From positions 1 to 45,663 of the forward strand of contig JAFRVB010000010.1 of assembly GCA_017441845.1 (NCBI GenBank): a stretch of DNA of 45,663 nt, read 5' to 3'. A program made the translations under genes and the position numbers. The notes below the pieces were generated by a model. It did not search any database, was not told the DNA's origin, and was given only the letters and a program-made list of their open reading frames with translations. Position 1 is the first letter of the stretch, and each line of letters begins with the position of its first letter. Source of the stretch: Bacilli bacterium (GTDB lineage: Bacteria > Bacillota_I > Bacilli_A > RF39 > UBA660). Positions 19,538 to 42,019 of this stretch are shown in pieces.

Positions 19538-19554
19538 TAATATAGGTGATAAAT

Positions 19555-20766
19555 ATGAGAAAAGATAAAAAGAAAAGAATTCGTAATAAGAAAAAGAGAA
19601 GGGAAAGTTATTCTTTTACTGAAGTTGTATTTTTATCATTCATGATGGCTTTATTAGGAATACTAGTAGGTATATTACTATGTTATTGTAAGATTAATAT
19701 TTTAGATTCTAGTGATGCTAAATTACAAGAGATTGTTTCTACTTATAATAATATTGTTAATAATTCTTATAGTAATATTGATAAAGATGAATTAGCTGAT
19801 TCTGCTATATCTGGAATGGTAAATTCTTTAGATGATTCTTATAGTAATTTCTTATCAGAAGAAGAAACTAAAACATTTAATGAATCTATTAATGGATATT
19901 ATGAAGGATTAGGTATAACTATTACTAAGAATGATAAAGGAGATACAGTAATTGTTGATGTAGCTAAAAATTCTCCTGCTAGTAAAGCTGGTATTAAGGT
20001 TGATGATATTATAGTATCTATTGATAATAAAGATGCTAATAAGACTGAAATATTTGATCTTTCAGATTATGTTTCTAAATCAGGAAATAAATATTTAAAT
20101 ATTAAAATAAGAAGAGATAATAAAATATTAGAATATAATATAAAAAGAGCTAAAGTGGTAGTACAATCTGTTATATCAGAAGTTAATGATAATATAGGGT
20201 ATCTTGATATTAATAATTTTGCTTTAAATACAGGGAAACAATTCAATAAAGAATTAGATAAATTAATGGAAAAGAATGTTAAAGGATTAATAATTGATTT
20301 AAGAGATAATCCTGGAGGACATCTTGGTCAAGTTAAGAGTATGGTTGAACCATTCTTTAAGAAAAATACTGTTATTTATCAAATAAAAGGTAAACACAGA
20401 AGTGTAAAAGTAAGAACTAGTGCTAAAAATAAAATAAATATACCTGTTGTTATTCTTATAAATGAGAATTCAGCATCTGCTTCTGAAATAGTAGCTTCAT
20501 GTTTCAAAGAGAATTATAAGAATGTTACTTTAGTAGGAAAAATGACTTATGGTAAAGGTACTATTCAAAAAGAAGTAAAACTATCTACAGGATCTAGTAT
20601 TAAATATACTACTCAAAAATGGTTAACTTCTAAAGGAGTATGGCTAAATCATGAGAAAAATAAAGGTCTTAAACCTGATGTTGAAGTAGATGTTTGTAAA
20701 GACGAAAAATGTGAGAAAGACATGCAATTTGAAAAAGCTTTAGAGATATTAAAAAAGAGTAGATAA
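19555..20766 (+). CDS. S41-family C-terminal processing protease (CtpA/CtpB type)
   Basis: The 403-residue serine protease has a very basic cytoplasmic N-terminus (MRKDKKKRIRNKKKRR), one membrane anchor (about 23-45), a helical prodomain, a PDZ domain (about 115-195, YYEGLGITIT through DDIIVSID) and the S41 catalytic domain. The nucleophile lies in NENSASASEIVAS and the general-base lysine in TYGKGTIQ; RDNPGG is the conserved turn. Family members act outside the membrane, trimming C-termini or degrading regulatory or wall proteins; CtpB acts in sporulation signalling. ATG 19555 is chosen over the in-frame GTG at 19546, which sits inside the AGGTGAT ribosome-binding site. All catalytic residues are present. 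Its substrate is unknown. Confidence 0.93.
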   Translation: MRKDKKKRIRNKKKRRESYSFTEVVFLSFMMALLGILVGILLCYCKINILDSSDAKLQEIVSTYNNIVNNSYSNIDKDELADSAISGMVNSLDDSYSNFLSEEETKTFNESINGYYEGLGITITKNDKGDTVIVDVAKNSPASKAGIKVDDIIVSIDNKDANKTEIFDLSDYVSKSGNKYLNIKIRRDNKILEYNIKRAKVVVQSVISEVNDNIGYLDINNFALNTGKQFNKELDKLMEKNVKGLIIDLRDNPGGHLGQVKSMVEPFFKKNTVIYQIKGKHRSVKVRTSAKNKINIPVVILINENSASASEIVASCFKENYKNVTLVGKMTYGKGTIQKEVKLSTGSSIKYTTQKWLTSKGVWLNHEKNKGLKPDVEVDVCKDEKCEKDMQFEKALEILKKSR

Positions 20767-20777
20767 TCTACTCTTTT
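20753..20777. terminator. Bidirectional terminator between S41 protease and sortase
   Basis: AAAAGAGTAGA/TCTACTCTTTT, an 11-bp stem with loop TAA. The loop is the S41 stop codon, and the right arm holds the sortase stop. Confidence 0.9.
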
Positions 20778-21316
20778 ATTATGCAGTTAATTATTAATTG
20801 GTAATTATCTTTTTTAGGACTACAAGTTGTTAAAACTAATTGTTTCTTGCTTTCGATAGGGAATATGATTGATCCTGTTTTAACAACTTCCCATTTATTT
20901 TGAACTATATAATTATATTCATGATTATATAGTTTTAAATTTACTTTATCCCCTTTTTCTAATTTATTTATATTTCTAAAGTAGGCAACATTTCCTGTTC
21001 CAGAATGGGCCGCTATTATCATAGTAGAATTTTTTTCATTTGGAAAAATCGAATCTTTTAGAATAGTAACATTCTTATCAACAGTATTCTTTTTATTGTT
21101 AATCGAATATAACTTGTTTTTTAAATTAATCTTATTAATTTTAATATAACCAATACTATCATCTTTTAAACTAATTTTATCTATCTTAAATGACTTTATT
21201 TGATTTGAAAAATCAATTTTAGTCACTAAAGACATTTTGTTTTTATAAGTATTATTGATAATAATACTTCCAATAACCATTACTAGAAGAATTATGAATA
21301 TCTGTAATTTTTTCAT
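20768..21316 (-). CDS. Sortase (LPXTG-type transpeptidase) with Gln at the usual Arg position
   Basis: Sortases cut a C-terminal sorting motif between Thr and the next residue and join the protein to the wall or to another pilin. The 182-residue product has one N-terminal anchor (about 5-21) and the sortase beta-barrel: IGYIKINKINLK, the catalytic histidine in IAAHSG (H104), LEKGDKVNL, and the catalytic cysteine in VLTTCSP (C165). The conserved arginine eight or so residues after the cysteine is replaced by glutamine (Q173 in NYQLI, codon CAA). It starts inside the stop of the upstream thioester-protein gene (ATGA overlap), so the two are coupled and probably enzyme and substrate. Class assignment is uncertain. 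Confidence 0.9.
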   Translation of the reverse strand: MKKLQIFIILLVMVIGSIIINNTYKNKMSLVTKIDFSNQIKSFKIDKISLKDDSIGYIKINKINLKNKLYSINNKKNTVDKNVTILKDSIFPNEKNSTMIIAAHSGTGNVAYFRNINKLEKGDKVNLKLYNHEYNYIVQNKWEVVKTGSIIFPIESKKQLVLTTCSPKKDNYQLIINCIIKE

Positions 21317-22716
21317 ATTAGTAATAATGATAAGATGAATAATAATAGATTACTATGATAGGATTTAGTATTTGGAACTTCTATTTTAAAATCTTTCAAA
21401 TGAATCTTTTGGTCTTTAGAGTCATTAACATCGATAGTAATTGGTTCAATAAAATCATAACCTGTAGTAGTAGTTAACTGTTTGATAGTATATTTCCCAT
21501 ATGGAAGAGTTATTTCCGCAATACCATCTTTATTAGTTTTAATAGTTTTGACTAATTTATTATCTTCATCAAAGACATTGAACTCGATATTAGCCTCTTT
21601 TACTTGTACTTTTTTTGTACCATATGTTTTGTATAGGATTATTTTCTTTTTTATTACTTCATTTTCAATAGTTATTTCTTGATCAGTATTATCTTTATCA
21701 ATAGTAAATTCAAATACATTGTTATTTAAATTATAACCAGTACCTGCTTCTATCTCTTGTAGTTCATAATGACCAAATTGTTCATCTGTTAAAGAGATAA
21801 TATTAGAATCGGTTAAAACTAATTCTCTTACTAGACCTGTATCTTTATTAGTTATTTTGAATTTAGTATTTTTAAAAGTAGCTTTACCACTATTAGTAGA
21901 ATTACCAGTATCTTTATCTATTTTTATGATTTTAATTGAAGTATTTAATACATTAACTTTTAGAGAAGTATTTAAGTATGATAGATTTCCTGTTTTTAAT
22001 AGATTTTGACTACCATCATTAATATAAAATAAAGCTGGATTATTATGATTGTTATCTTTACGAGTAAGATTTATTGTATAAGAACCTGTATCTAAATCTT
22101 TTACTGTGATTGAATTATTTTCAATCTTTAGATTTAGATTATTAGTATAATTATTTAATACATTACTATAATCTCTTATATTTAATTCAGTTCCTTTAAT
22201 GATATAGAATTCTTTTGAACTAAATCTTGGTAAAACAGTATTATCTTTAATTAATTTTTCTATTTCATTCATCATATGATCATAAGTATTAATCTTATTA
22301 CCATTTAGACTATCAGTAAAGTAAACATTACTATCTCCTTCAGTTTCTTTCCAGAGCATCACTTGAGTGACTGCATACCAGATCTTATCAGTATGACCTT
22401 TATAACCATAACCAAAGTGGGCTATTTCCTTCAAACGTTTTACTTGGTTACCAGATAAGTTTAATTCAGAAGATGTATATGAAGAGTTTTCATTAAACTT
22501 TAATTGTGGTTCAACACAATAAGCAAACTCTTTTGTACCAGTCTCTCTAAAGAATCTAGCTTTTTGATAATAGAGAGTCTTTGTTGATGGTTCATATCTA
22601 TTTATATAAACATTATCTATGGTTTCTGCTTCATAAAACGAATAAGTTTTAGCTTGAGTGTTTATCCCTATAAAGAGGGAAATAAACATAATTAAGAAAA
22701 ATATTAACTTTTTCAT
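21313..22716 (-). CDS. Thioester-domain (TQXA) surface protein with Cna-B-like repeats and a sorting signal
   Basis: The 467-residue secreted protein starts with a signal peptide (1-22, MKKLIFFLIMFISLFIG..). A thioester domain follows (about 25-165) with the cysteine in FAYCVEP (C67) and glutamine in AVTQVMLW (Q118), which in this family form an internal thioester able to bond covalently to host surfaces. Then comes a beta-rich linker domain (about 170-258), two SpaA/Cna-B-type domains (about 261-350 with ELQEIEAGTGY, and 357-432 with TIKQLTTTTGY), and the C-terminal VPNTK (447-451) plus a hydrophobic segment. The usual basic tail is absent: the protein stops at SLLLI. AAAGGAGG precedes ATG. 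It is the first gene of a two-gene operon with the sortase. Confidence 0.9.
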   Translation of the reverse strand: MKKLIFFLIMFISLFIGINTQAKTYSFYEAETIDNVYINRYEPSTKTLYYQKARFFRETGTKEFAYCVEPQLKFNENSSYTSSELNLSGNQVKRLKEIAHFGYGYKGHTDKIWYAVTQVMLWKETEGDSNVYFTDSLNGNKINTYDHMMNEIEKLIKDNTVLPRFSSKEFYIIKGTELNIRDYSNVLNNYTNNLNLKIENNSITVKDLDTGSYTINLTRKDNNHNNPALFYINDGSQNLLKTGNLSYLNTSLKVNVLNTSIKIIKIDKDTGNSTNSGKATFKNTKFKITNKDTGLVRELVLTDSNIISLTDEQFGHYELQEIEAGTGYNLNNNVFEFTIDKDNTDQEITIENEVIKKKIILYKTYGTKKVQVKEANIEFNVFDEDNKLVKTIKTNKDGIAEITLPYGKYTIKQLTTTTGYDFIEPITIDVNDSKDQKIHLKDFKIEVPNTKSYHSNLLLFILSLLLI

Positions 22717-22748
22717 CTCATTCCTCCTTTTTTTCTTAATTGACTGTG

Positions 22749-22944: not shown

Positions 22945-24519
22945 ATGACTGATATAGAGATAGCTAGAGAGTGTAATAAAAAAGATATTGTTGAGATTGG
23001 TAAAAAATTAGGATTAAAGAAAGAAGATTTAGTTCTATATGGTAATGATAAAGCTAAGATTAATGATGTTAAATCTAATAAGTTTGGTAAATTAATATTG
23101 GTTACAGCTACTTCTCCATGTCCAGCAGGTGAAGGTAAAACTACAGTATCTATTGGATTACATGATGCGTTGTGTAGTTTAAATAAAAATAGTTTAGTAG
23201 TTTTAAGAGAACCTTCTATGGGACCAGTATTTGGTATGAAAGGTGGAGCTACTGGAGGAGGATATTCTCAAGTTGTACCTATGGATGAGATTAATCTTCA
23301 TTTTACTGGTGATTTTGCGGCTATTGAAGCAGCAAATAATCTATTATGTGCCGCAATAGACTCTCACATTTATTTTGGTAATAAATTAGATATTAAAGAA
23401 GTATATTTTCATAGATGTTTAGATGTTAATGATAGATTCTTAAGAAAGATTAATGGTGAAAGAGAAGAATCATTTAATATTACTGCAGCTAGTGAAATTA
23501 TGGCACTATTCTGTTTAGCTAAAGATATGGATGATTTAAAAGAAAAACTAGGTAATATAGCGATTGGTATAAATAGTAAAGATGAATTAGTATACGCTAA
23601 AGAATTAAATATAGTTGGATCTATGGCAGTACTTTTAAAAGATGCGATTAAACCTAATCTAGTTCAAACTCTAGAGAATAATCCAGCTATTATTCATGGT
23701 GGGCCTTTTGCGAATATAGCTCATGGTTGTAATAGTGTTATCGCTACTAAACTAGGACTTTCTCTAGCAGATTATGTTGTTACAGAAGCAGGATTTGGTG
23801 CTGATTTAGGAGCTGAAAAATTCTTTGATATCAAGTGTAGATTAAATGATTTAAAACCTGATTGTATAGTATTAGTTACTACTGTTAGAGGTTTAAAATA
23901 TCATGGTAGAGATGATTTAAAAGTAGGTTTAGATAACTTAGATACTCATATTGATAATTTACTTTTATATAGTTCTAATTTAATAGTAGATTTGAATCTA
24001 TTTGATGATGATTCAGAAGAAGATATTAATACTATTAAAGAATTCTGTGAAAATAAAGGTATAACTTTTGAAATGAGTAGTGCTTATAAAGATGGATCTA
24101 AGGGAGCTATTAATTTAGCTAATAAAGTAATGGATATTTGTAATAATAAGAATGATTTCAAGTTATTATATGAAGATAATTTAGATATTAAATCTAAAAT
24201 AGATATTATATGTAAGAAGATATATCATGCTGATAAGGTTAATTATAGTGATAGAGCTATTGAAAAGATTAATAATTTAGAAGAATTTAGTGATTATCCA
24301 GTATGTATTGCGAAGACTCAGTATTCATTTACTGATAGTGCGAAAGCTATTGATATAAATAGAGGGTTTGAAGTTACAGTTAGAGATATTAGATTATATA
24401 ATGGAGCAGGTTTTATTACTATATTACTTGGTAATATTATGACTATGCCTGGATTACCTAAAGTTCCTAATTATGAACATATTGACATAGAAGAGGGAAA
24501 TATTATAGGATTAAGTTAG
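22945..24519 (+). CDS. fhs: Formate--tetrahydrofolate ligase (FTHFS)
   Basis: FTHFS makes 10-formyl-THF from formate, THF and ATP, feeding purine synthesis and initiator-tRNA formylation. The 524-residue product is slightly shorter than the usual ~555. It shows the ATP loop SPCPAGEGKTT (about 57-67), the REPSMGPVFGMKGGATGGG segment, MDEINLHFTGDFAAI, NPAIIHGGPFANIAHGCNS and TEAGFGADLGAEKFFDIKC, all family signatures. GAGGTGAG precedes ATG. It is followed after 12 nt by a metalloprotease gene, apparently in the same transcript. The C-terminal GNIMTMPGLPKVP motif is present, so the gene is complete and probably active. Confidence 0.97.
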   Translation: MTDIEIARECNKKDIVEIGKKLGLKKEDLVLYGNDKAKINDVKSNKFGKLILVTATSPCPAGEGKTTVSIGLHDALCSLNKNSLVVLREPSMGPVFGMKGGATGGGYSQVVPMDEINLHFTGDFAAIEAANNLLCAAIDSHIYFGNKLDIKEVYFHRCLDVNDRFLRKINGEREESFNITAASEIMALFCLAKDMDDLKEKLGNIAIGINSKDELVYAKELNIVGSMAVLLKDAIKPNLVQTLENNPAIIHGGPFANIAHGCNSVIATKLGLSLADYVVTEAGFGADLGAEKFFDIKCRLNDLKPDCIVLVTTVRGLKYHGRDDLKVGLDNLDTHIDNLLLYSSNLIVDLNLFDDDSEEDINTIKEFCENKGITFEMSSAYKDGSKGAINLANKVMDICNNKNDFKLLYEDNLDIKSKIDIICKKIYHADKVNYSDRAIEKINNLEEFSDYPVCIAKTQYSFTDSAKAIDINRGFEVTVRDIRLYNGAGFITILLGNIMTMPGLPKVPNYEHIDIEEGNIIGLS

Positions 24520-24531
24520 AAGGTGATTTCT

Positions 24532-25791
24532 TTGATATATTGTGGTGAATTAAAGAATCAAGGTATACTTTATCATACTTTTTATGATAAATATTCTAAA
24601 CAATTAAGGTTTTATTTAAATGGACAAGAAGTAGATAATGATTATTTATATAAGACTTATAATAAGACTAAAAATTGTTTAAGAGGTTATGGTAGATTAA
24701 CTACTTTAATTCTTTCATTGAGTATTATTACTGCAGCTATAGGTGTTACTGCTTTAGATGAAGATATTAGTATTAGTGATATATTTAATTCTGATTCTGG
24801 TATTATTACTATTGATGTACAAGAAGAGAATGAATTAACAGGAGAAGAATTATATAATGAATTGATAAGTAGAAATCCTGATTTAACTGAGTATTTAGAG
24901 ATGACTAAGGATATTGTGATAAAGTATGGTCCTTATATGAAACAAAGTGAATTACTTAGAACTATTGGTGATTTAGAGATAATTCCTACATCTAATAGAG
25001 AAGAAATGGAAGCTGGAAATGCTTTAGCATTTTATACTAAAGATGAAAATAAAATATATATAGATAGTAATATTAATGTAGAGTATTTAAAAAAGACATG
25101 TTTATATCATGAAATTCTACATTATTATTCTCAATCTGGTTTATATGATTTTAATAGTTATAGTGATGGTTATGATGGTTATGCTTTAAATGAAGGTATG
25201 ACTGAAATGTTGAATGCTGATTTTAATGATGATGAGATGTATACTTACCATCAAGAAGCTGCTTATGTTGGTGCTTTATGTGAAATAGTTGGACCAGAAG
25301 TTTTTGAACAAGCATACTTTGGTAATAATATTGATTATTTGACTTATGCTTTAGCTCAATATGCTGATGAAGATACAGCTCTAGCATTAATTAAAAATAT
25401 AGATATAGCTAAAGATTCATATGATTCATTTGTTTATTATGATAATGATGAAGACTATTATAACTTCGTATTAGCTAATGAGAATGCTTGGGCTATAATA
25501 TCCAATATGTATGATAATAAATATAATAGAGATATAGTTGGAGATAGATTAATGATGGCTTATATGAGTGCTACTACTCTAGATGATTATTGTGGTCTAG
25601 ATTTAGAGGGAGATTCTATCTTAGTAGATGTTATAGTTAATAAACATTATTTCAATGATACTAATAATGATTTTGTTATAGTAGATTATAATGTTAAAAA
25701 TAGTGATGGAATACAAGGTAAATCTCTTACTATAGAAGATAGTGAAAGATATGTTAATAATAATAATCAGATAAAAAAAAATAAGTTATAA
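24532..25791 (+). CDS. Membrane-anchored HExxH metalloprotease-like protein
   Basis: Unassigned 419-residue protein. Residues 1-54 are cytoplasmic and aromatic-rich (YCGELKNQGILYHTFYDKY), one transmembrane helix lies at about 56-76, and the remaining ~340 residues are probably outside. The outer part contains a zinc-binding HEILH motif (H193, E194, H197) followed by ALNEGMTEMLN (E221, E225), a gluzincin-like arrangement with the glutamate about 24-28 residues after the second histidine. It is therefore likely a secreted-side zinc peptidase, family not recognised. TTG at 24532 is chosen because AAGGTGAT lies just upstream; the in-frame GTG at 24523 overlaps that site. It follows fhs by 12 nt. 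The C-terminus is Asn/Lys-rich. Confidence 0.72.
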   Translation: MIYCGELKNQGILYHTFYDKYSKQLRFYLNGQEVDNDYLYKTYNKTKNCLRGYGRLTTLILSLSIITAAIGVTALDEDISISDIFNSDSGIITIDVQEENELTGEELYNELISRNPDLTEYLEMTKDIVIKYGPYMKQSELLRTIGDLEIIPTSNREEMEAGNALAFYTKDENKIYIDSNINVEYLKKTCLYHEILHYYSQSGLYDFNSYSDGYDGYALNEGMTEMLNADFNDDEMYTYHQEAAYVGALCEIVGPEVFEQAYFGNNIDYLTYALAQYADEDTALALIKNIDIAKDSYDSFVYYDNDEDYYNFVLANENAWAIISNMYDNKYNRDIVGDRLMMAYMSATTLDDYCGLDLEGDSILVDVIVNKHYFNDTNNDFVIVDYNVKNSDGIQGKSLTIEDSERYVNNNNQIKKNKL

Positions 25792-25805
25792 AACTTATTT
25801 TTTTT
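25774..25805. terminator. Bidirectional terminator
   Basis: ATAAGTT/AACTTAT stem (25781-25787, 25792-25798), extended by flanking A and T runs. It covers the metalloprotease stop and reaches the stop of the convergent 25804 gene. Confidence 0.85.
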
Positions 25806-26472
25806 ATTGATTACTTTCTTCTTCCTCATTAGTTTGAGGTTTTATTATCTTTGGACCTTCTTGTTTAGGTTGAACATGTATTTTTCCAGTATATGTTTTT
25901 TTATTATATGTTATTTTATATAGATAATTACCTGCTTCAGAAGTATTTACTTGACTTAGATCTAAGACTAAGTGATTCTTTATTTGTTCTGGTAGATTCT
26001 CTTTAATATAAGAAGATACATTAGTACTTATAGAGTCTCCTACTTCTAAGGTTATCTCTTTTAATGTTAATGAGAAATTAGGTAATTCTTGTTCTTTAAT
26101 TATAAATTTACCATTATATTTTTTACCTTTGAATGATACTGTGTATGCATAAGTACCAGCTTCATTTATATTTACCATTGAAGTATCTAATTTTAAAGCT
26201 TTTACTACTGATTCGTCTAAAGTATCAACATTTTCAATGTAGTCTCTAACATCTACACTTAGTGGATTGTTTATTTCTAAAGTCATAGTTTTTAAAATTA
26301 TTTCATCTGTTTTTAGAGAAGTAACTCTAGTAGAAGATACATTAACTGAATAATCTTTTTCTAGAATAGTACGATCTTGACCATTTAAAATCATTCCAGT
26401 CAAAAGCATAACTAGTCCCCAACCAGCTAATGTTATGGCTATAGAATTTTTAGCTTGAAATATTTTTTTCAT
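25804..26472 (-). CDS. Membrane-anchored protein with two Ig-like repeats
   Basis: The 222-residue protein has an N-terminal transmembrane anchor (about 10-30) and an outside part with two related beta-sandwich units of about 70 residues. These are recognised by LEINNPLSVDVRDYIE..TSMVNINEAGTYAYTVSFKGKKYNGKF and the parallel LEVGDSISTNVSSYIK..LSQVNTSEAGNYLYKITYNKKTYTGKI (each quoted in parts). The pattern (V/I)N.(S/N)EAG.Y.Y...(Y/F) is typical of bacterial Ig-like stalks. The tail is Pro/Glu/Asn-rich and has no sorting signal. TAGGAT precedes ATG. Function is unknown; a wall-spanning stalk or adhesion role is plausible but unproven. It resembles the stalk of the NlpC/P60 protein at 13291. Confidence 0.7.
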   Translation of the reverse strand: MKKIFQAKNSIAITLAGWGLVMLLTGMILNGQDRTILEKDYSVNVSSTRVTSLKTDEIILKTMTLEINNPLSVDVRDYIENVDTLDESVVKALKLDTSMVNINEAGTYAYTVSFKGKKYNGKFIIKEQELPNFSLTLKEITLEVGDSISTNVSSYIKENLPEQIKNHLVLDLSQVNTSEAGNYLYKITYNKKTYTGKIHVQPKQEGPKIIKPQTNEEEESNQ

Positions 26473-39416: not shown

Positions 39417-39436
39417 TTCGAAAGAACTATTTTTTT
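39410..39436. terminator. Bidirectional terminator between aqpZ and the FemAB pair
   Basis: AAAATAGTTC/GAACTATTTT, a 10-bp stem with GAAA tetraloop (39420-39423). Both stop codons lie inside the arms. Confidence 0.93.
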
Positions 39437-40725
39437 ATTTTATGTTTTAAATTTTTAAGTCCATGATATGTATTAAAAGCAAAATTATAAGTATGATACC
39501 AGAATGGTGAAATTACTAGGTCATATTCTCCTAATAATTCAACTACATAACCTCCAAAACTCTTTTTAAATAGATATAGTCCATATAGAGGATTAGATTC
39601 TCTAAAGTCTCCTGTTATACCATAGAAATTATATCTCTTATATCCATACTCCTGGGCATACTTAACTCCAGCATAATGAATAGTATAAGCAGATTTAAAT
39701 TGCATAACATCATCTAGAGTTCCACCTAGTAATGATAATACTTCATTACCATAAACTAAGAAAAGAATACCACCAAGTACTTTTTTATTACCTAGTTTAT
39801 CTCTATATTCTTTTATTTTTACTAAATCTTTTTCTAAACGAGCAATCTGTTCTTCATCTTGTTTGTTATTAGAGTTATATCTTTTCTCATTCATCTTTAA
39901 TAGATTGTTTTCATATTTATATTTTCTATCTTTTAAAGCTTCTTTATGCTCATTTAATTCAAGATTAGTATTCTTTTCAAATAAATCAAAATCTATTTCA
40001 CCAAGAAGTATTTTTAAAATACCACTATCATGAAGATTATTCCACATAGCTTCATAGTATGAGAATGGTCTATCAATAAATTCTCTTCTATCTGAAGTTT
40101 TCTGCATAATCTCTTTAAATGTTTCTAATTCATCTTTTTCTATCTCTCTAACAGTAATACCAGAACGTTCATTCTTTCTTAAAATTTGTCTAGTTTTAGA
40201 CTCCATATCTTTATCAATTTCATCAAGTGAACGATGTGTATCAATAACATGCATCCAACGAGGTTGTAGAGTATCTTGCATAGTATTAAAACCAAAGTGT
40301 TTATAACCTAAAGATACTAAATTCTTATGAGATTCTTTATTATTTCTTCCATTCTCAACAATATCTCCATTATTATCACGTTCTTGATATTCAACATAGG
40401 GATCTATCTTAACGAATATTGCTTTCTCTTTTTTCGCAAACTTCTTTAATTCATCAGTCCAATTCTTTAAAAGATCTTTATCATTATAATCAATTAAGAA
40501 TCCACGAGGAGCATAAAACATCTTTTTATGAACAAATGGTAGTTCTTTACTTAGTACTAGAGATACTGCTTTTACTTCATCATTATCTTTTAAACCTAAG
40601 TAGTAAGCATCCCAACCATTTTCTTTCTTTAAGTTAGCCCACTCTTCAGTCTGATGAAATGATATTTGTGGAGATTTATCTGCATACTTTTTAAATTCTT
40701 CTTTACTTAATATCTCTAACTTCAT
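39427..40725 (-). CDS. FemAB-type branch-peptide aminoacyltransferase (second of tandem pair)
   Basis: The 432-residue paralogue has the FemAB core: FHQTEEWANLKKENGW at the N-terminus, FYAPRGFLIDYND near residue 70, the QILRKNERSGI basic segment, and FYGITGDFRESNPLYGLY near the C-terminus. A helical, highly charged arm (about 245-310, HKEALKDRKYKYENNLLKMN) lies between the two GNAT-like domains, as in FemA/FemX. Its start lies 23 nt inside the upstream paralogue, with AAAGGAG in that coding sequence, so it is translationally coupled. Family logic suggests this pair adds successive residues of a cross-bridge; the residues themselves are unknown. Confidence 0.93.
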   Translation of the reverse strand: MKLEILSKEEFKKYADKSPQISFHQTEEWANLKKENGWDAYYLGLKDNDEVKAVSLVLSKELPFVHKKMFYAPRGFLIDYNDKDLLKNWTDELKKFAKKEKAIFVKIDPYVEYQERDNNGDIVENGRNNKESHKNLVSLGYKHFGFNTMQDTLQPRWMHVIDTHRSLDEIDKDMESKTRQILRKNERSGITVREIEKDELETFKEIMQKTSDRREFIDRPFSYYEAMWNNLHDSGILKILLGEIDFDLFEKNTNLELNEHKEALKDRKYKYENNLLKMNEKRYNSNNKQDEEQIARLEKDLVKIKEYRDKLGNKKVLGGILFLVYGNEVLSLLGGTLDDVMQFKSAYTIHYAGVKYAQEYGYKRYNFYGITGDFRESNPLYGLYLFKKSFGGYVVELLGEYDLVISPFWYHTYNFAFNTYHGLKNLKHKIKK

Positions 40726-42019
40726 TTTCTAACTCCTTTTTGCTTTTCTTTTTAACTATCTTTCTATAGAAAGGAACTAATTTAGTAAAAGCAAAATACA
40801 TTAAAGGATCAATAACATAATCAAATTCTCCCAAGAATTCAATATAGTCTCCACCAAACTTCTTTTTAAATTCATGTAGACCAATTACTGGATTATCTTC
40901 TCGCAAATCTCCGATAGTTCCGAATTGATCATAGATCTTAACACCATTTTCCTTGCAGTATTTAATGTGTTCATAATATGTTTTATAGTTAACATAAGTC
41001 TCACTAAGTTTATTATGATTTCCTGCGTATAATACCCAAGCTTTATCACCATAAGAAACTATCATATGAGCACTTAATAATAACTCTTTCCCATATTCTT
41101 TTTCATAATTTTTATATTTATCTATATCATTTTTAATATTATCTTTTTGTTTCATTAACTCATTAAGTTTATTCTTAGCTGATTTAGATAAATTATCTAT
41201 AGGTAAGATAGATATTTGATCATTAACTTCTTTTAATCTATCTTCCAAAGCTTTAATAGTTTTTTCAAAAACTATTTTACCTAAGAATAGAGTAGCTTTA
41301 GTATTTTTATTCTTATTGAAGATTTTATATAATTCTTCATAATAATCTTCTCCATAAGAAACAAAGCCTTTTCTATCCTCTGTAAGCATCATTAATTCAA
41401 AGAACGCTTTAACATCATTCGCATCTCCTATTTCAACTACAGTATCTAGTTTATCTGCCTTGGAGATACGTTGTTTAGTTGTTTTAGAGAAGTGAGATTC
41501 AATATCTTCTAAACTTTGATTCATATCTATTCTAAAAGTATATCTAGGTTGGGATGTTTCAAAATTCTTAGTAAATCCTAGATGTTTAAATTTAGCTTCT
41601 TTTAAAGTTTTAAATATCTTATCAGGATTATGATCTAACTTATTTTCTTCATCTAAATAGTTATAACTTTTATATACAATATCTGGATCAATCTTTAAAA
41701 ATATACCTTTATTCTTCTTACAGAATTTAACTAATTCTTTAGTCATTTCTTTTACTAATTCATCTTTGTTATAGTCTATTACAAATCCTCTAGGACAATA
41801 AAAATATGTCTTATTTAGAGGTAATTTCTTTTCTAATAGTAGAGCTGATGCTACTACATTATCTTTATCATCTATTAGACCTAGATAGTGAGGAGTTAAA
41901 TTCTTTTTAGATAAAGCTAATTCTCCCCATGATAAAGATTGTAAGAAATGGGATTTTTTCTTATGAGTTGATACAAATTCATCATATTTTTCTTTTTCAA
42001 TATTAGTAAGTCTTAACAT
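40703..42019 (-). CDS. FemAB-type branch-peptide aminoacyltransferase (first of tandem pair)
   Basis: The 438-residue paralogue shows the same layout: LQSLSWGELALSKKNL, FYCPRGFVIDYNKDE near residue 75, RISKADKLDT, and IYDQFGTIGDLREDNPVIGLH near the C-terminus. An antiparallel coiled-coil-prone arm lies at about 250-315 (KALEDRLKEVNDQIS and KLNELMKQKDNIKNDIDKY). The last 20 residues are basic (KIVKKKSKKELENE). GAGGA precedes ATG. It is transcribed from its own minus-strand promoter and overlaps the following FemAB gene by 23 nt. With the 1373 gene this makes three FemAB-type enzymes in one window. Confidence 0.93.
   Translation of the reverse strand: MLRLTNIEKEKYDEFVSTHKKKSHFLQSLSWGELALSKKNLTPHYLGLIDDKDNVVASALLLEKKLPLNKTYFYCPRGFVIDYNKDELVKEMTKELVKFCKKNKGIFLKIDPDIVYKSYNYLDEENKLDHNPDKIFKTLKEAKFKHLGFTKNFETSQPRYTFRIDMNQSLEDIESHFSKTTKQRISKADKLDTVVEIGDANDVKAFFELMMLTEDRKGFVSYGEDYYEELYKIFNKNKNTKATLFLGKIVFEKTIKALEDRLKEVNDQISILPIDNLSKSAKNKLNELMKQKDNIKNDIDKYKNYEKEYGKELLLSAHMIVSYGDKAWVLYAGNHNKLSETYVNYKTYYEHIKYCKENGVKIYDQFGTIGDLREDNPVIGLHEFKKKFGGDYIEFLGEFDYVIDPLMYFAFTKLVPFYRKIVKKKSKKELENEVRDIK

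Follow-up and report, generated by a model that had tools for sequence, protein, structure and literature searches.

A dedicated adhesin-sortase gene pair in RF39 Bacilli with a tail-less sorting signal and no catalytic arginine in the sortase

A classical sorting signal carries a positively charged tail behind its motif and hydrophobic segment, as supported by work in C. difficile (PMC5569036). How might a surface protein be sorted when its reading frame stops before any such tail, and what kind of sortase is encoded next to it? These questions are raised by two overlapping genes in a 45,663-nucleotide stretch of RF39 DNA (hereafter the window, meaning the whole stretch analyzed). An earlier note on this DNA had described a thioester adhesin with a Cna-B-like stalk, and had suggested that it forms a dedicated pair with the adjoining sortase under a private recognition rule. 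The features of the locus are listed in Table 1.

Table 1. Features of the adhesin-sortase locus and related genes in the window
Feature	Position (nt)	Strand	Basis or remark
Thioester (TED) adhesin CDS, 467 aa	21313..22716	-	Pfam TED and two SpaA; PDB matches 6fwv (BaTIE), 6fx6 (SaTIE-TED); orthologues in 40+ genomes
Adhesin Shine-Dalgarno GGAGG	22723..22727	-	Duplex energy -11.6 kcal/mol
Probable signal peptide, residues 1-22	22651..22716	-	Predicted from sequence: MKK, hydrophobic run, A22 invariant (26 adhesins)
Putative thioester Cys C67	22516..22518	-	Aligns to SaTIE Cys296; invariant in 26 adhesins
Q118, Gln of TQxA motif, almost certainly not the thioester partner	22363..22365	-	Aligns to SaTIE residue 350, not 467
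Putative thioester Gln Q237	22006..22008	-	Aligns to SaTIE Gln467; invariant in 26 adhesins, 98% of 52
SpaA/Cna-B domain 1, residues 260-353	21658..21939	-	Pfam; K265, E321, N352 invariant (26 adhesins)
SpaA/Cna-B domain 2, residues ~356-443	21388..21651	-	Second Pfam stretch (approximate coordinates), BaTIE alignment; K363, E374, Q413 invariant
VPNT sorting motif, residues 447-450	21367..21378	-	P448, T450 invariant; V447, I445 nearly (26 adhesins)
Short hydrophobic end LLLFILSLLLI, without basic tail	21316..21348	-	
ATGA, sortase start within adhesin stop	21313..21316	-	Same 4-nt overlap in L009-L011, L046, L062
Sortase CDS, 182 aa, N-terminal membrane helix, C-terminal one absent	20768..21316	-	Pfam/NCBIfam, AlphaFold2, Foldseek
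Putative catalytic His H104	21005..21007	-	Invariant in 37; 124/124 aligned sortases
K146-T-G148, K-x-G signature before beta-7	20873..20881	-	K 105/106, G 104/106 in Gln-type; 1/18, 0/18 in comparison sortases
Putative catalytic Cys C165 in LTTC	20822..20824	-	Invariant in 37; 124/124 aligned sortases
Q173, start of beta-8, Arg expected here	20798..20800	-	Cys+8 in CSPKKDNYQ; invariant in 37; aligned Gln 103/106
FemAB-family genes (three)	1373-2617, 39427-40725, 40703-42019	- (all)	

The gene pair and its adhesin

Both open reading frames are present, and the sortase gene indeed begins in the stop codon of the adhesin gene, as had been read from the ATGA. No Shine-Dalgarno sequence was found before the sortase start of the window (duplex energy, +2.0 kcal/mol). 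The two genes are co-inherited, overlapping each other, in more than 40 genomes, which agrees with the proposed dedicated enzyme-substrate pair. The carriers make up a family of uncultured gut-type Bacilli, and the relatives that bear names are Bacilli/Bacillales MAGs; the large number of uncultured genera in the family and its sortases and peptidoglycan genes would fit order RF39 (PMC10868615). Upstream of the pair lies the gene for a formate-tetrahydrofolate ligase (22945-24519); on the other flank, an S41/CtpB-like peptidase is encoded convergently (19546-20766). This peptidase gene is found downstream of the pair in 22 related loci, many stretches being too short to show it, and the site therefore appears to be chromosomal and stable. 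A search of 72,556 plasmids, 50,697 phages, and IMG/VR yielded no match to the pair; on this result and the retention of the S41 neighbor, a mobile cassette was rejected. Two further genes without a Pfam match, 24523-25791(+) of 422 aa and 25804-26472(-) of 222 aa, adjoin the ligase gene in congeneric genomes as well.

The adhesin matches the Pfam TED profile at residues 65 to 150 (37.1 bits; cut-off, 22) and contains two SpaA stretches (71.2 bits), and TED was found in 26/26 of its orthologues. These matches, all above the Pfam cut-offs, and the invariance of C67 and Q237 uphold the description as a thioester adhesin with a Cna-B stalk. The partner of the cysteine had, in our view, been misassigned to Q118. 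The thioester of SaTIE-TED joins Cys296 to Gln467 (PMC6194298), residues that align to C67 and Q237 of the window adhesin, and Q118 meets a different glutamine. This alignment makes Q237, and not Q118, the almost certain thioester glutamine. By sequence alignment alone, the Cys-to-Gln spacing is 170 residues, versus 171 in SaTIE, a distance that would suit the inserted beta-sandwich (slipknot) of a class II TED, and the best PDB matches are class II proteins. K265, E321, and N352 of the first stalk domain are compatible with a Lys-Asn isopeptide bond and a catalytic Glu, and such a bond may form there. The second (21388-21651(-)) has an invariant Gln413 where the isopeptide-catalyzing Glu is normal, so that its bond is uncertain, and it carries an unusual invariant Glu374.

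Like the TIE proteins SaTIE, BaTIE, and EfmTIE86 (PMC6194298) and SfbI (PMC4450167), the window adhesin has the TED Cys and Gln, a Cna-B isopeptide-type stalk, and a C-terminal sorting signal. It is smaller, with one TED and two stalk domains, and differs from them in carrying VPNT in place of an LPxTG-type signal, in its overlapping dedicated sortase, and in the absence of a basic tail. The class II TED adhesin TIEpLS20 of B. subtilis (PMC8092201) likewise lacks the canonical tail; however, it has no sorting signal and does not need a sortase, whereas VPNT and a sortase of its own are conserved for the window adhesin.

As for the wall to which the adhesin might be attached, the three FemAB-family genes suggest a peptidoglycan interpeptide bridge. 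VanY, NlpC/P60, a MurD-like ligase, and a MurJ-like flippase are also encoded in the window, and the RF39 wall has been predicted in the literature to be of the m-DAP type.

The sorting signal and the loss of its basic tail

The adhesin ends in ...KIEVPNTKSYHSNLLLFILSLLLI*, with no basic residue past the hydrophobic stretch. Thus, the motif and hydrophobic segment of an LPxTG-type signal are present, as VPNT followed by LLLFILSLLLI, and the positively charged tail is not: the last 8 residues are free of K and R in the window, L009, and L010, and the end of L011 bears one KR pair. VPNTK, an end of 17 residues, and an overlap of 4 nt recur in three same-genus orthologues (G001-G003), whose adhesins are 45 to 78% identical, showing that the missing tail is real and conserved.

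Other accounts of the missing tail can be weighed against these data. A sequencing, assembly, or frameshift artefact might be suspected, since the DNA comes from a MAG with a completeness of 67%, and the earlier note had named basic tails in close relatives as the sign of one. The close relatives proved to be tail-less and only the outgroups tailed; three congeneric genomes match in length, motif, end, and overlap, and short ends occur in the MAGs L061-L063 as well. An artefact is thereby ruled out, and we assign it practically no probability. It is also very improbable that the real tail is added by stop readthrough or by frameshifting into the sortase start (the MKK region). In the window, readthrough would append no more than KNYRYS, and several relatives would gain short K-containing peptides; basic letters are to be expected in these extensions from the overlap with the MxKK start of the sortase. 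Moreover, these extensions are short, unconserved, and sometimes absent (none in L046 and only KN in L009), and the stop is TAA in most of the clade. Decoding of TGA as Trp is ruled out by the same use of TAA and by the normal role of TGA in this genome, where it ends 4/34 of the examined ORFs and 82 Trp codons are TGG.

Among the TED loci, ends of 16 to 20 residues after VPNT recur in 15, with an overlap of 4 or 7 nt (ATGA or ATGnTAA). The remaining TED loci have longer signals, mostly with 24 to 36 residues after VPNT, and many of these finish with a YVKK-like tail, the overlap with the sortase start being 11 to 47 nt. After removal of the sorting signal, a tree built from adhesin plus sortase places all 16 tail-less loci inside one clade of 23 rows (23 genomes; SH-aLRT, 98). 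The 20 TED pairs outside the clade are of the long-overlap type and nearly all basic-tailed, the outlier being L077 with a degenerate short motif. Tail state is mixed inside the clade, where seven loci have odd extensions (L035, L036, L041, L042, L047, L054, and L060). In L035, L036, L041, and L042, the end of the adhesin is encoded across the sortase start in another frame (LCxK...), a pattern indicating that gain or loss of a tail hangs on single bases in the overlapping codons.

The segment itself differs as well. Over the most hydrophobic 14 residues, hydrophobicity is 0.60 in the clade versus 0.84 outside it, and the clade segment is more amphipathic (mean moment, 0.43 versus 0.14; Mann-Whitney p 6e-7, a value that overstates independence because the sequences are related). 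The window segment is not amphipathic (moment, 0.12), and its genus is the short, hydrophobic exception within the clade.

The suggestion that VPNT constitutes a private code could not be sustained. VPNTD followed by an ordinary RRNGKK tail occurs in a second sortase-substrate pair of this genome, so that the motif is not private to the adhesin pair, and the residue after VPNT varies among orthologues (K, H, S, Y, R, A, or N). The other sortase substrates of this genome are basic-tailed (VPNTD...RRNGKKA, ...TSKKLANR, and ...LKRRFN), and tail loss therefore belongs to this pair.

Predicted catalytic residues of the sortase

The enzyme was recognized by both profile and fold. Its Sortase domain (residues 58 to 175) scored 62.4 bits against PF04203 (cut-off, 26.6) and 55.3 against TIGR01076 (cut-off, 39.35), and Pfam Sortase matched 37/37 of the TED-linked sortases. 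AlphaFold2 gave a pLDDT of 56 with an alignment of 4 sequences and of 88 with 37 sequences; in this model, the core has a pLDDT of about 95 or more, C165 closes beta-7, beta-8 starts at residue 172, and Q173 is the second residue in beta-8. The top Foldseek match was SrtC1 4d7w (E 3.4e-10; probability, 1.00). None of the NCBIfam cut-offs for classes A to F was reached (class C, 63/160; SrtD, 56.1/140; class D, 51.8/165; class E, 26.8/160).

Class C sortases (S. agalactiae SrtC1, 4d7w; C. perfringens SrtC, 7d6t) are the closest in fold and sequence, but the window sortase has neither their C-terminal membrane helix nor the Arg, possesses K-x-G, and remains far below the cut-off of 160. It resembles class D (NF033746 and NF058671; 51.8 and 56.1 bits) in size and in its single N-terminal helix, yet it falls under the cut-offs (165 and 140), lacks the Arg, and faces a VPNT rather than an LPxTA-type substrate. 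With SrtA of S. aureus, S. pyogenes, and S. pneumoniae it shares the His and Cys, and its beta-7/beta-8 loop is as long as that of the streptococcal enzymes; in contrast to them, Arg197/Arg216 is replaced, and the substrate has no basic tail.

The His-Cys-Arg triad is treated as universal among native sortases (PMC8361268; PMC13257024). In the window enzyme, the Arg expected after the Cys was not found: the sequence reads CSPKKDNYQLIIN, with a register uncertain by one residue. In profile alignments, Gln173 falls either in the column of the Arg or in the one preceding it, and neither register has an Arg. The Cys-to-Gln spacing (C+8) equals the Cys-to-Arg spacing in S. pneumoniae SrtA, in which CEDLAATER places the Arg at Cys+8 (PMC8361268), and in S. 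pyogenes SrtA (C208/R216; PMC9520033). Thirteen positions are invariant over the 37 TED-linked sortases, namely, I60, AAHSG (102-106), F113, G148, LTTC (162-165), and Q173, and no Arg is among them. As far as aligned sequences can tell, two points are certain: the Arg is missing, and an invariant Gln lies next to the predicted active site.

The same holds in the wider set of 106 Gln-type sortases, where the Cys is kept in 106, T164 in 105, and the aligned Gln in 103; Tyr or His stands instead of Gln in three aligned members (L077, L126, and L130). The 18 comparison sortases, by which the K-x-G signature was judged (Table 1), include the own-genome class B-like L007, whose Arg is likewise unclear. 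A second sortase clade in the same family, with other substrates, was aligned separately, and K-x-G and Gln are invariant in it, too; a single ancestral loss could underlie both Arg-less clades, so that they are perhaps not independent. All out-of-family relatives found in a 392-genome sample of the phylum have the Arg and lack K-x-G. Fold and profile identify the enzyme as a sortase; lacking His-Cys-Arg and reaching no class A to F cut-off, it is best listed as an Arg-less variant outside the assigned classes.

Other sortases of the genome were also inspected. The one belonging to the VPNTD substrate with the RRNGKKA tail (L024:6553-7215, G000:C9; L014) has Gln for Arg together with K-x-G. 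A class B-like sortase (L028:6603-7301, G000:C11; L007) ends in CSINNQGYQKYHLVIGKEV, and His apparently occupies the position expected to carry Arg; the Arg is kept in three further class B-like sortases.

A model for the pair and its alternatives

The likeliest reading of these sequences is that the enzyme would be an active His-Cys-Gln(+Lys) transpeptidase dedicated to the adhesin. We lean, with a confidence somewhat beyond an even chance, toward a vertically inherited pair that would display a covalently binding adhesin anchored by a Gln173/Lys146 sortase, the tail having become a short helix in one clade. The broader proposition, that a natural class of active sortases has exchanged the Arg for Gln plus a Lys in the beta-6/beta-7 region and that one branch of it sorts tail-less substrates with a short membrane-surface helix, whose coding sequence reaches into the first bases of the sortase gene, seems to us evenly balanced.

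In the model that we favor, the adhesin would be exported in a Sec-dependent manner and raised on its two Cna-B domains, and the Cys67-Gln237 thioester of the N-terminal TED would react with an amine on the target. A ribosome ending at the adhesin stop may restart at the overlapping AUG and thus make the dedicated sortase (termination-reinitiation). Cys165 and His104 of the latter would cleave after VPNT, and the cleaved adhesin would be joined to a peptidoglycan bridge amine made by FemAB-type enzymes. With Gln173 at the position of the catalytic Arg, Lys146 before beta-7 probably gives the positive charge that holds the substrate backbone. In the derived branch, a long hydrophobic stop-transfer segment and basic tail would have turned into a short helix at the C-terminus. 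This helix, which stops where the sortase start codon lies, is predicted to be amphipathic in most branch members and plainly hydrophobic in the window genus. Until it is cut, it is probably retained at the outer face of the membrane or by contact with the helix of the sortase. For SrtA and M protein, a transmembrane pairing has been put forward on the basis of simulation (PMC12746448).

Whether the Arg stabilizes the transition state or positions the substrate is under debate (PMC9520033). Two further accounts of the pair may be considered. The pair may be an ordinary one showing tolerated variation, with canonical catalysis, the nearby K146 serving for the Arg, and the short tail acting as a weak but sufficient stop-transfer. 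The standard fold, His, Cys, and TLxTC-like motif would all suit such a view, as would the few basic residues near the end in L047 and L011 and the activity retained by an engineered Arg-to-Ser SrtA; the Arg may serve binding rather than transition-state stabilization (PMC9520033). Nevertheless, tolerance would not lead one to expect that Gln173 itself is invariant, and tail loss is limited to one clade and accompanied by altered helix character; we consider this account unlikely but worth keeping in sight. Loss of the Arg here could, on the other hand, mean loss of activity, because R216A in S. pyogenes SrtA and R200A in F. alocis SrtA abolished activity or nearly so (PMC9520033, PMC13257024). 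The protein might then be a pseudo-sortase, a chaperone or partner that keeps the adhesin noncovalently at the membrane, and the one-to-one pairing through overlapping genes would fit that role. A dead enzyme should, however, have lost its Cys or its His in at least some of so many genera, whereas both are retained in 124/124 sortases and T164 is retained in 105/106; P448 and T450 of the substrate motif are invariant as well. A pseudo-sortase is therefore regarded as improbable.

The absence of the Arg, which the earlier note had missed, is more surprising than the missing tail. With more than 100 natural Arg-less sequences, nearly all of them carrying Gln and Lys-x-Gly, the role of this residue becomes testable in natural enzymes instead of mutants, and the tail-less substrates can be used to probe how much of the hydrophobic stop-transfer segment and basic tail is needed. 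We found no earlier report of a natural Arg-less sortase in the open-access literature, which is weak evidence of absence; the host organisms are uncultured, and such enzymes have thus likely been overlooked so far. Gln-type sortases could also be of use as orthogonal protein ligation tools.

One member departs from the pattern in both partners. At L077/L110 (G011), the motif is degenerate (VPNA) and Tyr replaces the sortase Gln, and this is possibly a decaying pair.
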